From positions 1 through 29,800 of IMG/VR virus record IMGVR_UViG_3300044730_001496: a stretch of 29,800 bases of DNA; one strand, written 5' to 3'. The position numbers and the translations under genes are program-made. The DNA is from a virus. Position 1 is the first letter of the stretch. Every line of letters starts with the position of its first letter. Below the pieces are notes generated by a model, which had not been told where the DNA came from, ran no database searches, and saw only the letters and a program-made list of their open reading frames with translations. Below, in pieces: positions 3,422 to 8,055 of the stretch.

Positions 3422-3796
3422 TTATTTAGAACGAATATTGCTAAAAGGCAGTCTTCTTAAGTCTGCAAGTTCTTGCTGATAGACTTCATATAAACCGCCA
3501 GCAACTTCATCCCAAGTATATTGTCTAGATTCTCCCCAGTGAAAATTAATTCCTTTAAATCCCCAGGTATAAACTTCAGTAACAGCAACTAAAGGATTTT
3601 GGTCATATTGTATTCCAGTTGTTTTGGCATTATAAACAAAAATATAAAACTTACCAGCAACAGGACGGGTTTTTGTTTCTAGTAGAATACTCATCAATTC
3701 AATCATTAAATCATCAGAACTTTCTGTTCCGATTAATTTCCTAACAAGAGGGGCAATTCGATTTATTTTTCTTTCTTGAAGCGTTTTTCTAGGCAT
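3422..3796 (-). CDS. conserved structural-region protein of unknown function
   Basis: 124 aa, basic N-terminus (MPRKTLQERKINRIAPLVRKL). The middle (PVAGKFYIFVYNAKTTGIQYDQNPLVAVTEVYTWGFKGINFHWGES) has the look of a small family common in marine T4-like phages, with a K-x-Y-x-F-Y-x-A-K-T segment, P-L-V, and G-x-N-x-H. I recognise the pattern but know no function. The stop of gp4 and the start of this gene share a base at 3796, so it is translated with the gp4-gp48-gp53 operon, which suggests a head-completion or baseplate role. No membrane segment or signal peptide is seen. Confidence 0.75.
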   Translation of the reverse strand: MPRKTLQERKINRIAPLVRKLIGTESSDDLMIELMSILLETKTRPVAGKFYIFVYNAKTTGIQYDQNPLVAVTEVYTWGFKGINFHWGESRQYTWDEVAGGLYEVYQQELADLRRLPFSNIRSK

Positions 3797-4233
3797 TATT
3801 TAATACCAAGTTCTTGTTCGGTAATAACTTTAAACTCATATCCACGATCTTCACACCATTCTTTTGCCGCTTCCCATTTTGCTTGGTTCTTAGCATACTC
3901 GTAGACTTCACTAATATATTTTTTAGTTTGTCTTTGGGGTTTTTGGGGAGGTAGAGTTTGTTTTTTAGGTTTGATCTCGATCATATATTTTTTAATCGTA
4001 CCATTAGATTCTTTAACTTTAATAAGAAAATCTGGAAAGTACCGATGTATCTTACCGTCTATTGGTGAACGATATGCGATTGCTTTTTCTTCTGATGACC
4101 ACGATAAAATATTTTCATTTAAATCGCAGTAAACGCAAAACTTTCTCTCCCATAAGGAACGATAGATGATATTTGTTGGGTCACCATTATATTTTTCTGG
4201 AAACGATGGCTTGTATTTTCCTTTATATGACAT
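3796..4233 (-). CDS. 4: head completion protein gp4 (nuclease-like)
   Basis: 145 aa (T4 gp4, also called gp50/65, is 150 aa). It finishes the packaged head before tail joining. Almost every block of the T4 protein is present: MSYKGKYKPSFPEKYNGDPTN, IYRSLWERKF, WSSEEKAIAYRSPIDGKIHRYFPDF, YMIEIKPKKQTLPP, KKYISEVYEYAKNQAKWEAAKEWCEDRG, F-VITE. The E-x9-Y-x-P-D-x-PDF...EIKPK arrangement is that of a TnsA/PD-(D/E)xK-like nuclease fold, with D after the RYFP, and E and K in EIKPK as probable catalytic residues. It is the first gene of the minus-strand operon; the ATG lies about 20 nt after the predicted late start site. Confidence 0.92.
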   Translation of the reverse strand: MSYKGKYKPSFPEKYNGDPTNIIYRSLWERKFCVYCDLNENILSWSSEEKAIAYRSPIDGKIHRYFPDFLIKVKESNGTIKKYMIEIKPKKQTLPPQKPQRQTKKYISEVYEYAKNQAKWEAAKEWCEDRGYEFKVITEQELGIK

Positions 4234-4273: not shown

Positions 4274-5104
4274 GTGCCCGCTACACCACGTAGAATATCT
4301 GATATCAAACCATTATTTTCAAATCTTGCTCAGACATCTCATTATCAGGTAATATTTGGTGGATTGCCAACGGCTTTGATTTCTTATTTAAGTCGTAGAG
4401 GTGTTAACTCTTTCTTTATTGCCGATACTGCAGGATTGCTGTGCTATTCCGCATCATTACCAACAACATCATTTAGTACAAAGACTGTTGATGGTAATTT
4501 TATGGGCATTCAAGAGAAGTTTGCGATGTCGAGATTGTATAGTGAAATTAGTTTAGAATTTTATATTGATAGTAATTACTATAATCTAAAATTCTTAGAG
4601 CATTGGATGGAGTTCATTGCTAGTGGATCTCATAATCCAGTTGATAATGCTTCTGCTGGTTCTGTAAGTCAGGCAAATACAAACTATTTTGTAAGAATGC
4701 AGTATCCAGAACATTATAAATGCAATTCTACCAAAATTATTAAATTTGATAGAGATTATCAGGCTGAGATTGAATATACTTTTATTGGATTATGGCCAGT
4801 TTCATTAAGTGCTCCATCGGTTTCTTATGTTCAGTCTGATGTTTTAAAAGTATCAGCATCATTTCAATATGATCGTTATATTGCAGGTAGACCGCTCAGT
4901 ATTAACAGATTTAGAGGAGACTTTAATAATAACCAATCATCATCTTCCTCTACAACCAAACCCGCAAATGTTGAACAGCAAACGTTAGTTCCAGTTCGTG
5001 GTCAGAGTGGTGTTGTTTTTTATAATAGTAGTGTAGATACCAGGACTACCGCAGAGGTTAATAGAAGATTTTATGATTCGCAAGGTCGTCCAATTATCAA
5101 CTAA
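4274..5104 (+). CDS. 54: baseplate tail-tube initiator, gp54-like
   Basis: 276 aa, GTG start chosen because MPATPRRISDIKPLFSNLAQ begins just after it and a late promoter sits 34 bases upstream. The body (QTSHYQVIFGGL, FIADTAGLLCYSASLPTTSF, FMGIQEKFAMSRLYSEISLEFYID, FLEHWMEFI, YFVRMQYPEHYKCNSTKIIKFDRD, EYTFIGLWPVSLSAPSVSY) is the tail-tube fold shared by T4 gp19 and gp54. The extra C-terminal region (QYDRYIAGRPLSINRFRG and a Ser/Thr-rich tail) and the baseplate neighbourhood favour gp54, which nucleates the tube on the gp48 platform. It could instead be annotated simply as a tube-like protein. In T4 genes 48 and 54 are adjacent and co-oriented; here they are divergent. Confidence 0.7.
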   Translation: MPATPRRISDIKPLFSNLAQTSHYQVIFGGLPTALISYLSRRGVNSFFIADTAGLLCYSASLPTTSFSTKTVDGNFMGIQEKFAMSRLYSEISLEFYIDSNYYNLKFLEHWMEFIASGSHNPVDNASAGSVSQANTNYFVRMQYPEHYKCNSTKIIKFDRDYQAEIEYTFIGLWPVSLSAPSVSYVQSDVLKVSASFQYDRYIAGRPLSINRFRGDFNNNQSSSSSTTKPANVEQQTLVPVRGQSGVVFYNSSVDTRTTAEVNRRFYDSQGRPIIN

Positions 5105-5128: not shown

Positions 5129-5848
5129 ATGCCATTACCTAAAATATCTACACCAACATATGAGTTGGAAATTCCTTCATTAGAAAAACAAATTAAGTAT
5201 CGCCCCTTTCTAGTTAAAGAAGAAAAGATTCTCATTATTGCAATGGAAAGTGAGGATCCAAAGCAAATTGCAGAAGCAGTTAAAACAGTAATTGGAAACT
5301 GTATTTTAACTAGAGGAATTAAAATCGAACAATTATCTACATTTGATATTGAATATCTTTTTCTAAACATTCGTGGAAAGTCTGTTGGAGAAGAAGTAGA
5401 AGTTCTGATTACTTGCCCCGATGATGGTGTGACGCAAGTTCCAATATCAATTAGTTTGGATGAAATTAAAGTTCAGGTAAAACCAGAACATACAAAAGAT
5501 ATTAAACTTGATGATAATCTGACATTAAGAATGAAGTATCCTTCAATGCAAGAATTTGTTAAAAATAATTTTTCAAGTGATGGGGATATGTCAGTTGATG
5601 ATACTTTTAGTATGATTTCTTCTTGCGTAGAGCAAATTTATAGTGAAGAAGAATCCTGGTCTGCTTCTGATGTAACCAAAAAAGAAATGAATGAGTTTCT
5701 AGAACAGTTAAGTTCAAAGCAGTTTAAGCAGATTGAAAAATTCTTTGAAACAATGCCCAAACTTTCTCATACTGTATTTGTAACAAATCCGAATACTGGT
5801 GTGGAAAATGAAATTCTCCTGGAGGGACTAACATCTTTTTTCGGTTAG
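5129..5848 (+). CDS. 26: baseplate hub protein gp26 (tail-assembly-chaperone-like)
   Basis: 239 aa (T4 gp26 is 208 aa). The opening PLPKISTPTYELEIPSLEKQIKYRPFLVKEEKILI, then TVIGNCI, IEQLSTFDIEYLFLNIRGKSVGEEVEV, and YPSMQEF are the hallmarks of the T4 gp26 family. gp26 is needed for hub assembly. The protein ends with an acidic helical region. The last codons (TCT TTT TTC GGT TAG) contain a canonical slippery heptamer in the correct phase, so a fraction of ribosomes may shift -1 and continue into the next ORF. The following genes look like tape-measure proteins, the usual place of the G/GT chaperone pair in other tailed phages. Driven by a late promoter at 5101. Confidence 0.78.
   Translation: MPLPKISTPTYELEIPSLEKQIKYRPFLVKEEKILIIAMESEDPKQIAEAVKTVIGNCILTRGIKIEQLSTFDIEYLFLNIRGKSVGEEVEVLITCPDDGVTQVPISISLDEIKVQVKPEHTKDIKLDDNLTLRMKYPSMQEFVKNNFSSDGDMSVDDTFSMISSCVEQIYSEEESWSASDVTKKEMNEFLEQLSSKQFKQIEKFFETMPKLSHTVFVTNPNTGVENEILLEGLTSFFG
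5836..5842 (+). other. predicted programmed -1 ribosomal frameshift site
   Basis: T TTT TTC, with gp26 read as TCT TTT TTC GGT TAG. Slipping back one base gives TTT TTT CGG TTA GGT ATG and enters the 57-aa ORF without a stop. The heptamer fits X XXY YYZ and lies three bases before the gp26 stop. I did not identify a firm downstream stimulatory hairpin. Confidence 0.6.
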
Positions 5849-5850
5849 GT

Positions 5851-6024
5851 ATGGCGCACGTTGATCTTGCGTCATATTATAAAACTAATTTTGCCTTGAT
5901 TCAGCATCATCATTGGTCTTTAACTGAAATTGAAGAAATGTTACCTTGGGAGCGTGAAATTTATATAAGTCTACTTCATCAATACATTGAAGAAGAAAAT
6001 TTAAAAAATCAACAACATTCTTAA
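5851..6024 (+). CDS. 57-aa C-terminal extension ORF of gp26 (GT-like chaperone / gp51 position)
   Basis: 57 aa from ATG 5851, two bases after the gp26 stop; the -1 frame is open through CGG TTA GGT into this ATG, so it may be made mainly as a gp26 fusion of about 298 aa. The sequence (ASYYKTNFALIQHHHWSLTEIEEM, PWEREIYISLLHQYIEEEN) is helical and resembles second-frame extensions of tail-assembly chaperones: aromatic/His helix, S-L-x-E-I-E-x-M, W-E-R-E, and an acidic end. In T4 gene 51 follows 26, but T4 gp51 is far longer, so homology is not claimed. The last residues (KNQQHS) follow a point where a second copy of the gene's 3' end is found 0.8 kb downstream, beyond an inserted endonuclease. 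Confidence 0.7.
   Translation: MAHVDLASYYKTNFALIQHHHWSLTEIEEMLPWEREIYISLLHQYIEEENLKNQQHS
5978..6009 (+). repeat. upstream copy of duplicated 3' gene end
   Basis: 32 nt matching 6766-6797 at 28 positions. In frame both copies encode QYIEEENLKN, and all four differences are synonymous third-position changes (TAC/TAT, TTA/TTG, AAA/AAG, AAT/AAC). The two copies flank the GIY-YIG gene. Confidence 0.8.
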
Positions 6025-6042: not shown

Positions 6043-6657
6043 CTATTTTATTTTTTCAACCTTCATAATGTCTTTATGTCTTTTTCGTTTTCCTTTATAT
6101 ACATTATGAATATTACCATTACTATAACCACTATTTTTGCACCAAGTAGATAATCCACATATTATAGTTACATCTCCATTTGAATGTGTAATTTTCCACC
6201 AATTAGATCTTAAATGTTTCTCTCCTAATTGCGCCATTTTCATTTTTTCTCTAGTTTCTGGTGAAGGGGATTTTCCATATCTTGGATTATTTTTTCCAAT
6301 GTTAGCTTTTCTTAATTTTTCTTTATGTTCTTTCAAAAGAATTTTATTTTTATTTGCTCTACTTAATTTTTCTTTAAACTCTAAAGAACGAACTGCTCCA
6401 CTTGCACCATCTCCACCATCAGTTCTATTATGTAAAATACCAGTACCTAAATCTTTTCTACCAAAAATAGAAATCATATATATTTCGTGTTTGAATGCTT
6501 CTTCTTCAGTTAAATTTTGTTTAAGAAATATAATTCTTGATCTATCTTTTGGTAGTTTTGCCCCTTGATATCTTTTATTAAATGCTCTCCTATCCTTACC
6601 CTTTCCAATATAGTAAGGTGTGCCGTCTTCACGCAAGTAAGCGTAAGTATAATACAT
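6043..6657 (-). CDS. GIY-YIG homing endonuclease (copy 1)
   Basis: 204 aa from ATG 6657 on the minus strand. An in-frame ATG at 6678 is rejected because it lies inside the inverted-repeat arm and upstream of the predicted late transcript start (~6676). N-terminal GIY-YIG nuclease: YYTYAYLRE, YYIGKGKDRRA, IIFLKQNLTEEEA, catalytic Glu in KHEIYMI, and HNRTDGGDG. The middle holds NUMOD3-type DNA-binding repeats (FKEKLSRANKNK, EHKEKLRKANIGKNNPRYGK, ETREKMKMAQLG). The C-terminal part (TIICGLSTWCKNSGYSNGNIHNVYKG) looks like a helix-turn-helix. It is free-standing, antisense to the tail operon, and closely similar in its nuclease domain to the copy at 16808. Confidence 0.9.
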   Translation of the reverse strand: MYYTYAYLREDGTPYYIGKGKDRRAFNKRYQGAKLPKDRSRIIFLKQNLTEEEAFKHEIYMISIFGRKDLGTGILHNRTDGGDGASGAVRSLEFKEKLSRANKNKILLKEHKEKLRKANIGKNNPRYGKSPSPETREKMKMAQLGEKHLRSNWWKITHSNGDVTIICGLSTWCKNSGYSNGNIHNVYKGKRKRHKDIMKVEKIK

Positions 6658-6681
6658 TTCTACTCTATTGAACCGCAATAA

Positions 6682-6759: not shown

Positions 6760-6766
6760 CTAAATA
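6760..6766 (+). promoter_or_regulatory. T4-type late promoter for the tape-measure-like genes
   Basis: CTAAATA, about 39 bases before ATG 6805, located between the endonuclease cassette and the recoded gene end. It would keep downstream tail genes expressed despite the antisense insertion. Confidence 0.5.
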
Positions 6767-6812
6767 TCAATATATTGAAGAAGAAAATTTGAAGAACTCA
6801 TCTAATGGCTAA
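6766..6812 (+). pseudogene. recoded, detached 3' end of the 57-aa ORF
   Basis: In frame from 6768 this encodes QYIEEENLKNSSNG and a TAA at 6810-6812, overlapping the ATG of the next gene by 8 bases, the coupling style used elsewhere in the operon. It is most likely the original end of the 57-aa ORF, cut off by the endonuclease insertion. No start codon or initiation site is apparent for it alone. Confidence 0.6.
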
Positions 6813-8055
6813 CGGAAACACCGCATCACTTGTAGGTCTCCAAGATCAATTAAATACTGTACGTTCAGAAGTTTTCACGATTAATTCTGGACTGCAAAAT
6901 ATTGCGGGTTTAATTCAGACTGATAGTTTTCTTGATCAACAAAAACTTCGTGATGAAAGGGAGCAGCAAAGACTATTAAACGAAAGAGAAATAAGACTTG
7001 GGCAGGAAGAACAACTCCAACAAAGAGTTTCTGCATCTTTGGTTCAACCTGTAGTTAAACTTGAAAATAAGATTACACCAATATTTGAAAGAATTACAAG
7101 TGTTCTTAAGTATTTGTTCGTTGGATTTTTGGGGAAAAATATATTAGGTATTTTAAACGCAGGTGCTACTAAAAGTGTTCAAGCAATAACTTCAATTGGA
7201 AGTGTTGTTAGAAATGCTTTTGGATTTATTGGATCTGGATTCGCATTATTGAAAAGCGGATTTTCTTCAATAATTAATGGGGTCCAATCAATTACATCAA
7301 AAATTGGAAACACCGCAATTAAACTTGTTTCATCACCTTTTAAAGCAATTTCTGATATTTTTAAAAATTTATTTAAAGTAGGTGGGACAGGTGGAGGTGC
7401 TGCTGCTGGGGCTGCTGCAACTACTGCTGAATCTGGATTATTAAAAATTCTTCAAACGGTTGGTAAAGTTGGTGGAACTGCCTTGGGTGCAGTTGCTACA
7501 GCACAGAACATCAAAGAAGGTGATGTTGCTGGTGCGGCGTTAAGTGGTGCTGCAACAATTCCAAATCCTTTTCAAATGCCTGCGATAATTGGAAGTGTTG
7601 CGTATGAATTATCTACTGGTGGTGGAATTGATTTTGGAAAAATGTTATCAAGTGGAAAAGAAGCAACGCAAAAATTTAATTTCAATATTAATCAATTTAA
7701 TCCAATGAATATTGATTTTTCCCAAATGGGTAAAAATCTTTTTGGAACAGAAACAACAAATCTTGATGCTCCAGCTAAAGAAGTTAAAGGTAAGGTAGAA
7801 ACTCCAAAAACCACATCTACAAAACCAGTTAAATTAGAATCAATACCACAGCAATCAATTAAGCAACAACCAAACATTGGCGCACTGCCAGAACCAGCTC
7901 CAGATATTGTTTATTTGCAAAATAGTCAGAAAAATAATACCTCAGTTGCATCTGGTGGAACACAGACACTCACAGATGTACCTTTGATTCCATCTTCTAA
8001 TCCTGATAATTTTTATGCATTGTATGCTCAGGTTAGTTACAACGTGGTGATGTAA
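6805..8055 (+). CDS. tape-measure-like tail protein 1
   Basis: 416 aa. Residues ~5-95 are helical and probably coiled coil (DQLNTVRSEVFTINSG, then a run of E, R, Q: DEREQQRLLNEREIRLGQ). A hydrophobic segment follows (VLKYLFVGFLGKNILGILNAG, ~102-122), then Gly/Ala-rich amphipathic stretches (TGGGAAAGAAATTAESG; VGGTALGAVATAQNIKEGDVAGAALSG), and a low-complexity Pro/Gln/Thr tail. This composition and its place directly after the gp26 chaperone pair suggest a tape-measure or hub-internal role, like T4 gp29 (590 aa), but no sequence match to gp29 is claimed. The ATG overlaps the original end of the preceding ORF. One base separates it from the next gene. Confidence 0.6.
   Translation: MANGNTASLVGLQDQLNTVRSEVFTINSGLQNIAGLIQTDSFLDQQKLRDEREQQRLLNEREIRLGQEEQLQQRVSASLVQPVVKLENKITPIFERITSVLKYLFVGFLGKNILGILNAGATKSVQAITSIGSVVRNAFGFIGSGFALLKSGFSSIINGVQSITSKIGNTAIKLVSSPFKAISDIFKNLFKVGGTGGGAAAGAAATTAESGLLKILQTVGKVGGTALGAVATAQNIKEGDVAGAALSGAATIPNPFQMPAIIGSVAYELSTGGGIDFGKMLSSGKEATQKFNFNINQFNPMNIDFSQMGKNLFGTETTNLDAPAKEVKGKVETPKTTSTKPVKLESIPQQSIKQQPNIGALPEPAPDIVYLQNSQKNNTSVASGGTQTLTDVPLIPSSNPDNFYALYAQVSYNVVM

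Follow-up and report, generated by a model that had tools for sequence, protein, structure and literature searches.

A probable -1 frameshift joining gene 26 to a gp51-like extension in a cyanophage, in the manner of tail assembly chaperones

Introduction

Poly-T -1 frameshift signals in the genes for the short form of the tail assembly chaperone (TAC-N) of T4-like phages are credited by a citing paper to Vladimirov, Gautam and Davidson (Virology 2022) (PMC12846349), and a second citing paper credits the same work for T4-like phages that have one short and one long fused gene instead (PMC10885494). Here we analyzed the 3'-end of gene 26 in a cyanophage, represented by the 29.8-kb viral record IMGVR_UViG_3300044730_001496 (the window, by which we mean the whole stretch of DNA). 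We propose that gp26 is very probably the TAC-N and that its fusion to a downstream extension is the long form (TAC-NC), both being made from one gene by -1 frameshifting, as judged from sequence comparison; the proposal is a further case of the published T4-like scheme. The abstract of the 2022 work reportedly names genes 26 and 51. In the literature searched, which represents that work through citing papers, we did not find a Shine-Dalgarno (SD)-like element and a covarying stem-loop at such a site, relatives in which the extension lacks a start codon, or the natural variants described below.

The closest described pair is gp26 and gp51 of T4, both of which belong to the family of the window gp26 (PF12322). 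T4 gp26 terminates at the junction and T4 gp51 continues with the same C-terminal domain, spanning gp26 and the extension. In T4 the two forms are separate genes without a slippery heptamer, whereas the window phage would have one frameshifting gene, as described for some groups of T4-like phages according to the citing papers. The lambda pair gpG and gpGT has the same gene order (tube-like, chaperone, tape-measure-like) but a different heptamer, and sequence similarity to the window proteins is not shown; the lambda ratio of 30:1 (PMC5009743) is not known to hold for the window phage. The TAC of the Vandenendeviridae and Andersonviridae (phage Adele) likewise has a poly-T run at the 3'-end of TAC-N and a -1 frame open towards the tape-measure gene, but with a GTTTTT motif and in other phage families (PMC12846349). 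The dnaX cassette of E. coli resembles the window in its upstream SD-like sequence, slippery heptamer and downstream stem-loop, and differs in its heptamer, A AAA AAG, and in that the shift to -1 yields the shorter protein (PMC5009743).

Results

The 3'-end of gene 26 and the -1 frame

The window gp26 shares 78% identity with its counterpart in Synechococcus phage S-SRM01 and 73% with the one in P-SSM2. Its gene ends in ...ACA TCT TTT TTC GGT TAG, in which a single codon (GGT, three bases) separates a T TTT TTC heptamer from the stop. The features of the junction are listed below, with the open reading frame (ORF) that follows.

5129..5848, plus strand: gene 26, the putative short form (TAC-N) of 239 amino acids, from PF12322 T4_baseplate, phrog_150 and predicted fold
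5836..5842, plus strand: slippery heptamer T TTT TTC, in X XXY YYZ phase for -1 slippage
5842..6024, plus strand: -1 frame extension (putative TAC-C), RLGMAHVDL...QHS, which with gp26 would make the long form TAC-NC; homologous to the C-terminus of T4 gp51
5851..6024, plus strand: 57-amino-acid ORF with its ATG at 5851, labelled in relatives as a separate 'gp51 / baseplate hub assembly catalyst'

Past the heptamer, the -1 frame (FFRLGMAHVDLASYYKTNF..., FFRLGMAHVDL) enters the 57-amino-acid ORF in frame and stays open until the stop at 6022-6024. A first-pass annotation of the window had proposed a heptamer in -1 phase three bases before the gp26 stop, a -1 frame running openly into the 57-amino-acid ORF and a junction peptide SFFRLGMAH. 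The sequence agrees with all of this, and the peptide is what the -1 frame encodes.

Conservation of the heptamer and of the frame offset

We compared 270 loci encoding a gp26 relative, including named phages and distant groups. TTTTTTC stood exactly at -10 from the gp26 stop in 252 of the 270, and another slippery T6N run lay at or near the site in 15 more (seven TTTTTTA, four TTTTTTT, three TTTTTTC at -7 and one TTTTTTT at -13), leaving three loci without any such run. In a diverse subset of 83 representatives below 85% identity, 68 had the TTTTTTC site, and elsewhere in these genes a single in-phase TTTTTTC was found among 18,822 other codon positions. The heptamer is thus not a product of chance. 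Among the IMG/VR relatives at least 77% identical, the heptamer was kept in 79 of 80, with the same two-base offset wherever the extension could be located, one contig (L005) being the exception. The cultured phages P-SSM2, S-SRM01 and S-SKS1 share this offset.

The slippery T run also occurs in phages whose gp26 is merely ~21-35% identical to that of the window, namely phiM7 (Sinorhizobium), BUCT608 (Stenotrophomonas), 7757 (Desulfovibrio), V45v66 (Variovorax), ValKK3 (Vibrio), AsFcp_1 (Aeromonas) and Atu_ph04 (Agrobacterium). The first-pass annotation had named loss of the heptamer in orthologues as evidence against a frameshift. Instead, heptamer, offset and open -1 frame were kept across cyanophages, and also in distant T4-like phages of Vibrio, Aeromonas, Rhizobiales, Stenotrophomonas, Variovorax and Desulfovibrio.

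Codon choice and start codons

Phe-Phe is encoded at the site in 72 of the 83 representatives and is written TTT TTC in 68 of them, against an expectation of 21% each from codon usage in these genes; in 78 of the 83, T is the last base of the codon before. A nominal probability for this codon choice was not used as a test because the sequences are related. T4-type phages in which genes 26 and 51 are separate provided a negative control for the heptamer, having TTC TTT or other codons at the site: T4, S16, Roth01, SA35RD and PSD2002 encode Phe-Phe as TTC TTT and have no heptamer, nor was one found in Acinetobacter 3014, Makalu and UP87.

We searched the -1 frame for starts that could serve the extension on its own. 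No ATG, GTG or TTG was present as far as 36 nt beyond the gp26 stop in 27 of the 78 representatives with the site, and in a further 18 the sole possible starts were GTG or TTG. In those 27, lacking a start of its own, the extension can scarcely be an independent gene. At least 90% conserve the Arg that the -1 frame encodes ahead of the ATG.

Sequences flanking the heptamer

Two elements that could assist slippage flank the heptamer in the window.

5821..5826, plus strand: SD-like GGAGGG, putative 5' frameshift stimulator, from anti-SD duplex energies
5848..5878, plus strand: downstream stem-loop (5848-5858 with 5868-5878), from folding and covariation

GGAGG (5821-5825) lies 10 nt from the heptamer. 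The 18-nt stretch concerned gave an average anti-SD duplex energy of -6.43 in the 78 representatives, compared to -5.06 (standard deviation 0.14) after synonymous recoding (z -9.4). The stem-loop begins 5 nt past the heptamer in the window and 5-8 nt past it across relatives, has a conserved 8-bp core (5851-5858/5868-5875), and contains the ATG of the 57-amino-acid ORF. The 45 nt after the heptamer gave a mean folding z of -2.86, compared to -0.7 to +0.3 at nine other offsets. A 101-nt stretch folded as a single sequence was unremarkable (z -0.79), the stem signal appearing in the 45-nt stretch and across relatives.

In the window's own clade the stem covaried with a score of 0.150 against 0.063 in shuffled alignments, a value reached by 0 of 500 shuffles, a comparison that relatedness inflates according to the tool's own warning; 98.8% of cells were paired. 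The compensatory changes were C-G to U-A and G-C to U-A or A-U, and the score fell to 0.05 or less when the partners were slid by 1-3 columns. In other cyanophage clades the stems differ but are similarly spaced from the heptamer. RNAalifold returned a weak common stem for the S-CAM4-type set, in which two stem registers are mixed, and we limit the covariation claim to the window's clade. No Rfam family matched. Both the SD-like element and the stem-loop may stimulate slippage.

Protein families of gp26 and the extension

The window gp26 matched PF12322 with an E-value of 3.1e-74 (249.8 bits, cut-off 24.5). The extension matched phrog_634 ('baseplate hub assembly catalyst') as well as the final 40 columns of phrog_150; the match to the C-terminus of phrog_150 implies that other members of that family hold both parts in one protein. 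The extension profile aligned to residues 200-244 of T4 gp51 (E 1.3e-5) and gave no alignment to T4 gp26. The first-pass annotation had likened the extension to the T part of G/GT chaperones; the homology seen here is to the C-terminus of T4 gp51 rather than to lambda T itself.

We modelled gp26 and the extension separately. The extension was predicted to be all-helical, and Foldseek found no match for this model. Its sequence matches in the PDB looked like chance coiled-coil matches and were rejected. NCBIfam matches were far below the cut-offs. The annotation of S-CAM4 (L094) has no feature for the extension, and in DSL-LC03 the stretch is named 'lysozyme C'.

Gene neighborhood

The genes surrounding the junction are as follows.

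4274..5104, plus strand: tail-tube-like gene, upstream (PF23849 Phage_TTP_2)
6043-6678, minus strand: homing endonuclease gene, NUMOD3-containing and GIY-YIG-like
6805..8055, plus strand: tape-measure-like ORF, downstream, with weak PHROG tape-measure matches (phrog_305, 1.9e-5)

Gene 26 and the extension are placed between the tube-like gene and the tape-measure-like ORF, and the endonuclease gene is inserted before the latter. The first-pass annotation had expected tape-measure-like genes to follow, which is borne out on these weak matches, with the homing-endonuclease-like gene intervening. A remnant like the original 3'-end of the extension, QYIEEENLKNSSNG, lies within 6766-6812, directly ahead of the tape-measure start, and in its present form the window extension terminates in a diverged copy, QYIEEENLKNQQHS. 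Three loci without the endonuclease insertion (L004, L006 and L018) have an 8-nt overlap between the extension and the tape-measure gene. Further upstream, 3796-4233 (minus strand) matched a Pfam TnsA-like endonuclease N-terminal domain (E 8.9e-25). It is more likely a homologue of gp4 than a transposition gene, because P-SSM2 has the head completion gene gp4 on the minus strand directly before the tube-like gene.

Discussion

We propose that most ribosomes would halt at the TAG and yield gp26 (TAC-N), and that a fraction would slip by -1 on T TTT TTC into the -1 frame and yield a fusion of ~300 amino acids (TAC-NC), the slip being helped by the SD-like sequence 10 nt upstream and the stem-loop 5-8 nt downstream. 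Slippage in infected cells, and its rate, are predicted here from the nucleotide sequence. By analogy with lambda gpG and gpGT, the TAC-N/TAC-NC pair may act on the tape-measure or hub protein and on tube subunits. The first-pass annotation had placed the gp26 family in the functional scheme of lambda G/GT, an idea already published in 2022; the conservation of the site supports it, and the best solved match of the gp26 model is the HK97 TAC.

The model of gp26 had a mean predicted local distance difference test (pLDDT) score of 87, and VIA-align matched its residues 1-95 to the solved structures of the HK97 TAC (2ob9, Z 7.8), 3fgx (Z 7.7) and YqbN (3klu, Z 7.1), the last two of which we take to be chaperone-family proteins. 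Several points weigh against our proposal. These Z scores are all below 8 and thus fall within the chance range for a single match, and Foldseek alone gave no significant solved match for the gp26 model. The compared sequences share ancestry, so that they are not fully independent. Cyanophage S-SCSM1 (L092, 2215-2404) keeps the heptamer, but its extension lies in the +1 frame and has an ATG of its own, and in the metagenome contig L045 the -1 frame is cut short; both exceptions may be sequencing errors, as may single-contig variants in general. As a separate observation on the gp26 model, the fourth-best solved match, over residues 6-92, was 5ir0 (Z 5.0), which is ORF19 of a phage-inducible chromosomal island (PICI)-like element of Vibrio cholerae; this satellite protein may share the chaperone fold.

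Other natural variants were found at the site. The 236-kb contig L005 has gp26 and the extension fused in frame (2001-2888, TCT TTT TGG TTA), which may be a case where the frameshift was lost naturally. In Vibrio phage K355 and Aeromonas phage phiA8-29 (L087 and L090), A CTT TTC replaces the T6 run and the -1 frame is open, so that A CTT TTC is possibly a non-canonical shift site.

We considered whether the 57-amino-acid ORF might be a gene in its own right (gp51), with translation starting at its ATG and perhaps coupled to the gp26 stop, with the T run simply mirroring a conserved Phe-Phe. The ATG two bases beyond the gp26 stop, the annotation of a separate gene in P-SSM2 and others, and the S-SCSM1 extension, in another frame with its own ATG, all fit such a gene. 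We nevertheless hold it to be most unlikely: 27 of the 78 diverse relatives lack a start codon, the ATG of the window is buried in the stem, and TTT TTC is retained far in excess of codon usage when several T4-type gp26 genes encode the same Phe-Phe as TTC TTT. T4 gp51, moreover, is a natural fusion of both parts.

Slippage of RNA polymerase on the T run, rather than of the ribosome, would give an identical protein, and the site does have six Ts in a row (eight in L268). Six Ts are short for polymerase slippage, however, and the run is mostly of that length; both the SD-like element and the stem-loop, with its spacing and covariation, belong to a type that acts on ribosomes, making this route extremely unlikely. 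It is also very unlikely that gp26 serves as a structural part of the hub, in keeping with its label 'baseplate hub subunit', with the extension a minor product without a role in assembly. Some genetic studies did put T4 gp26 in the hub, but gp26 and gp51 are tabulated as hub assembly chaperones, and gp51 is essential and absent from the final particle (PMC3004832); the extension is, in addition, conserved at the protein level. We retain -1 frameshifting within one chaperone gene as by far the most probable explanation.

A more speculative idea concerns the amounts of the two forms. The dnaX-like tripartite signal of the cyanophages might set the long form at a much higher ratio than that of lambda gpGT, a ratio re-set in evolution by separate genes (T4), a change of frame (S-SCSM1) or in-frame fusion (L005). 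We consider this rather doubtful; if true, the higher ratio implies a different chaperone stoichiometry in T4-like tails.

The frameshift proposed here adds a tripartite signal with covariation to a scheme previously put forward for T4-like phages, and the comparison independently connects the T4 gp26/gp51 pair with the logic of lambda G/GT. Many cyanophage records split into 'gp26' and 'gp51', or drop the second part of, what most likely is a single chaperone gene with a frameshift.
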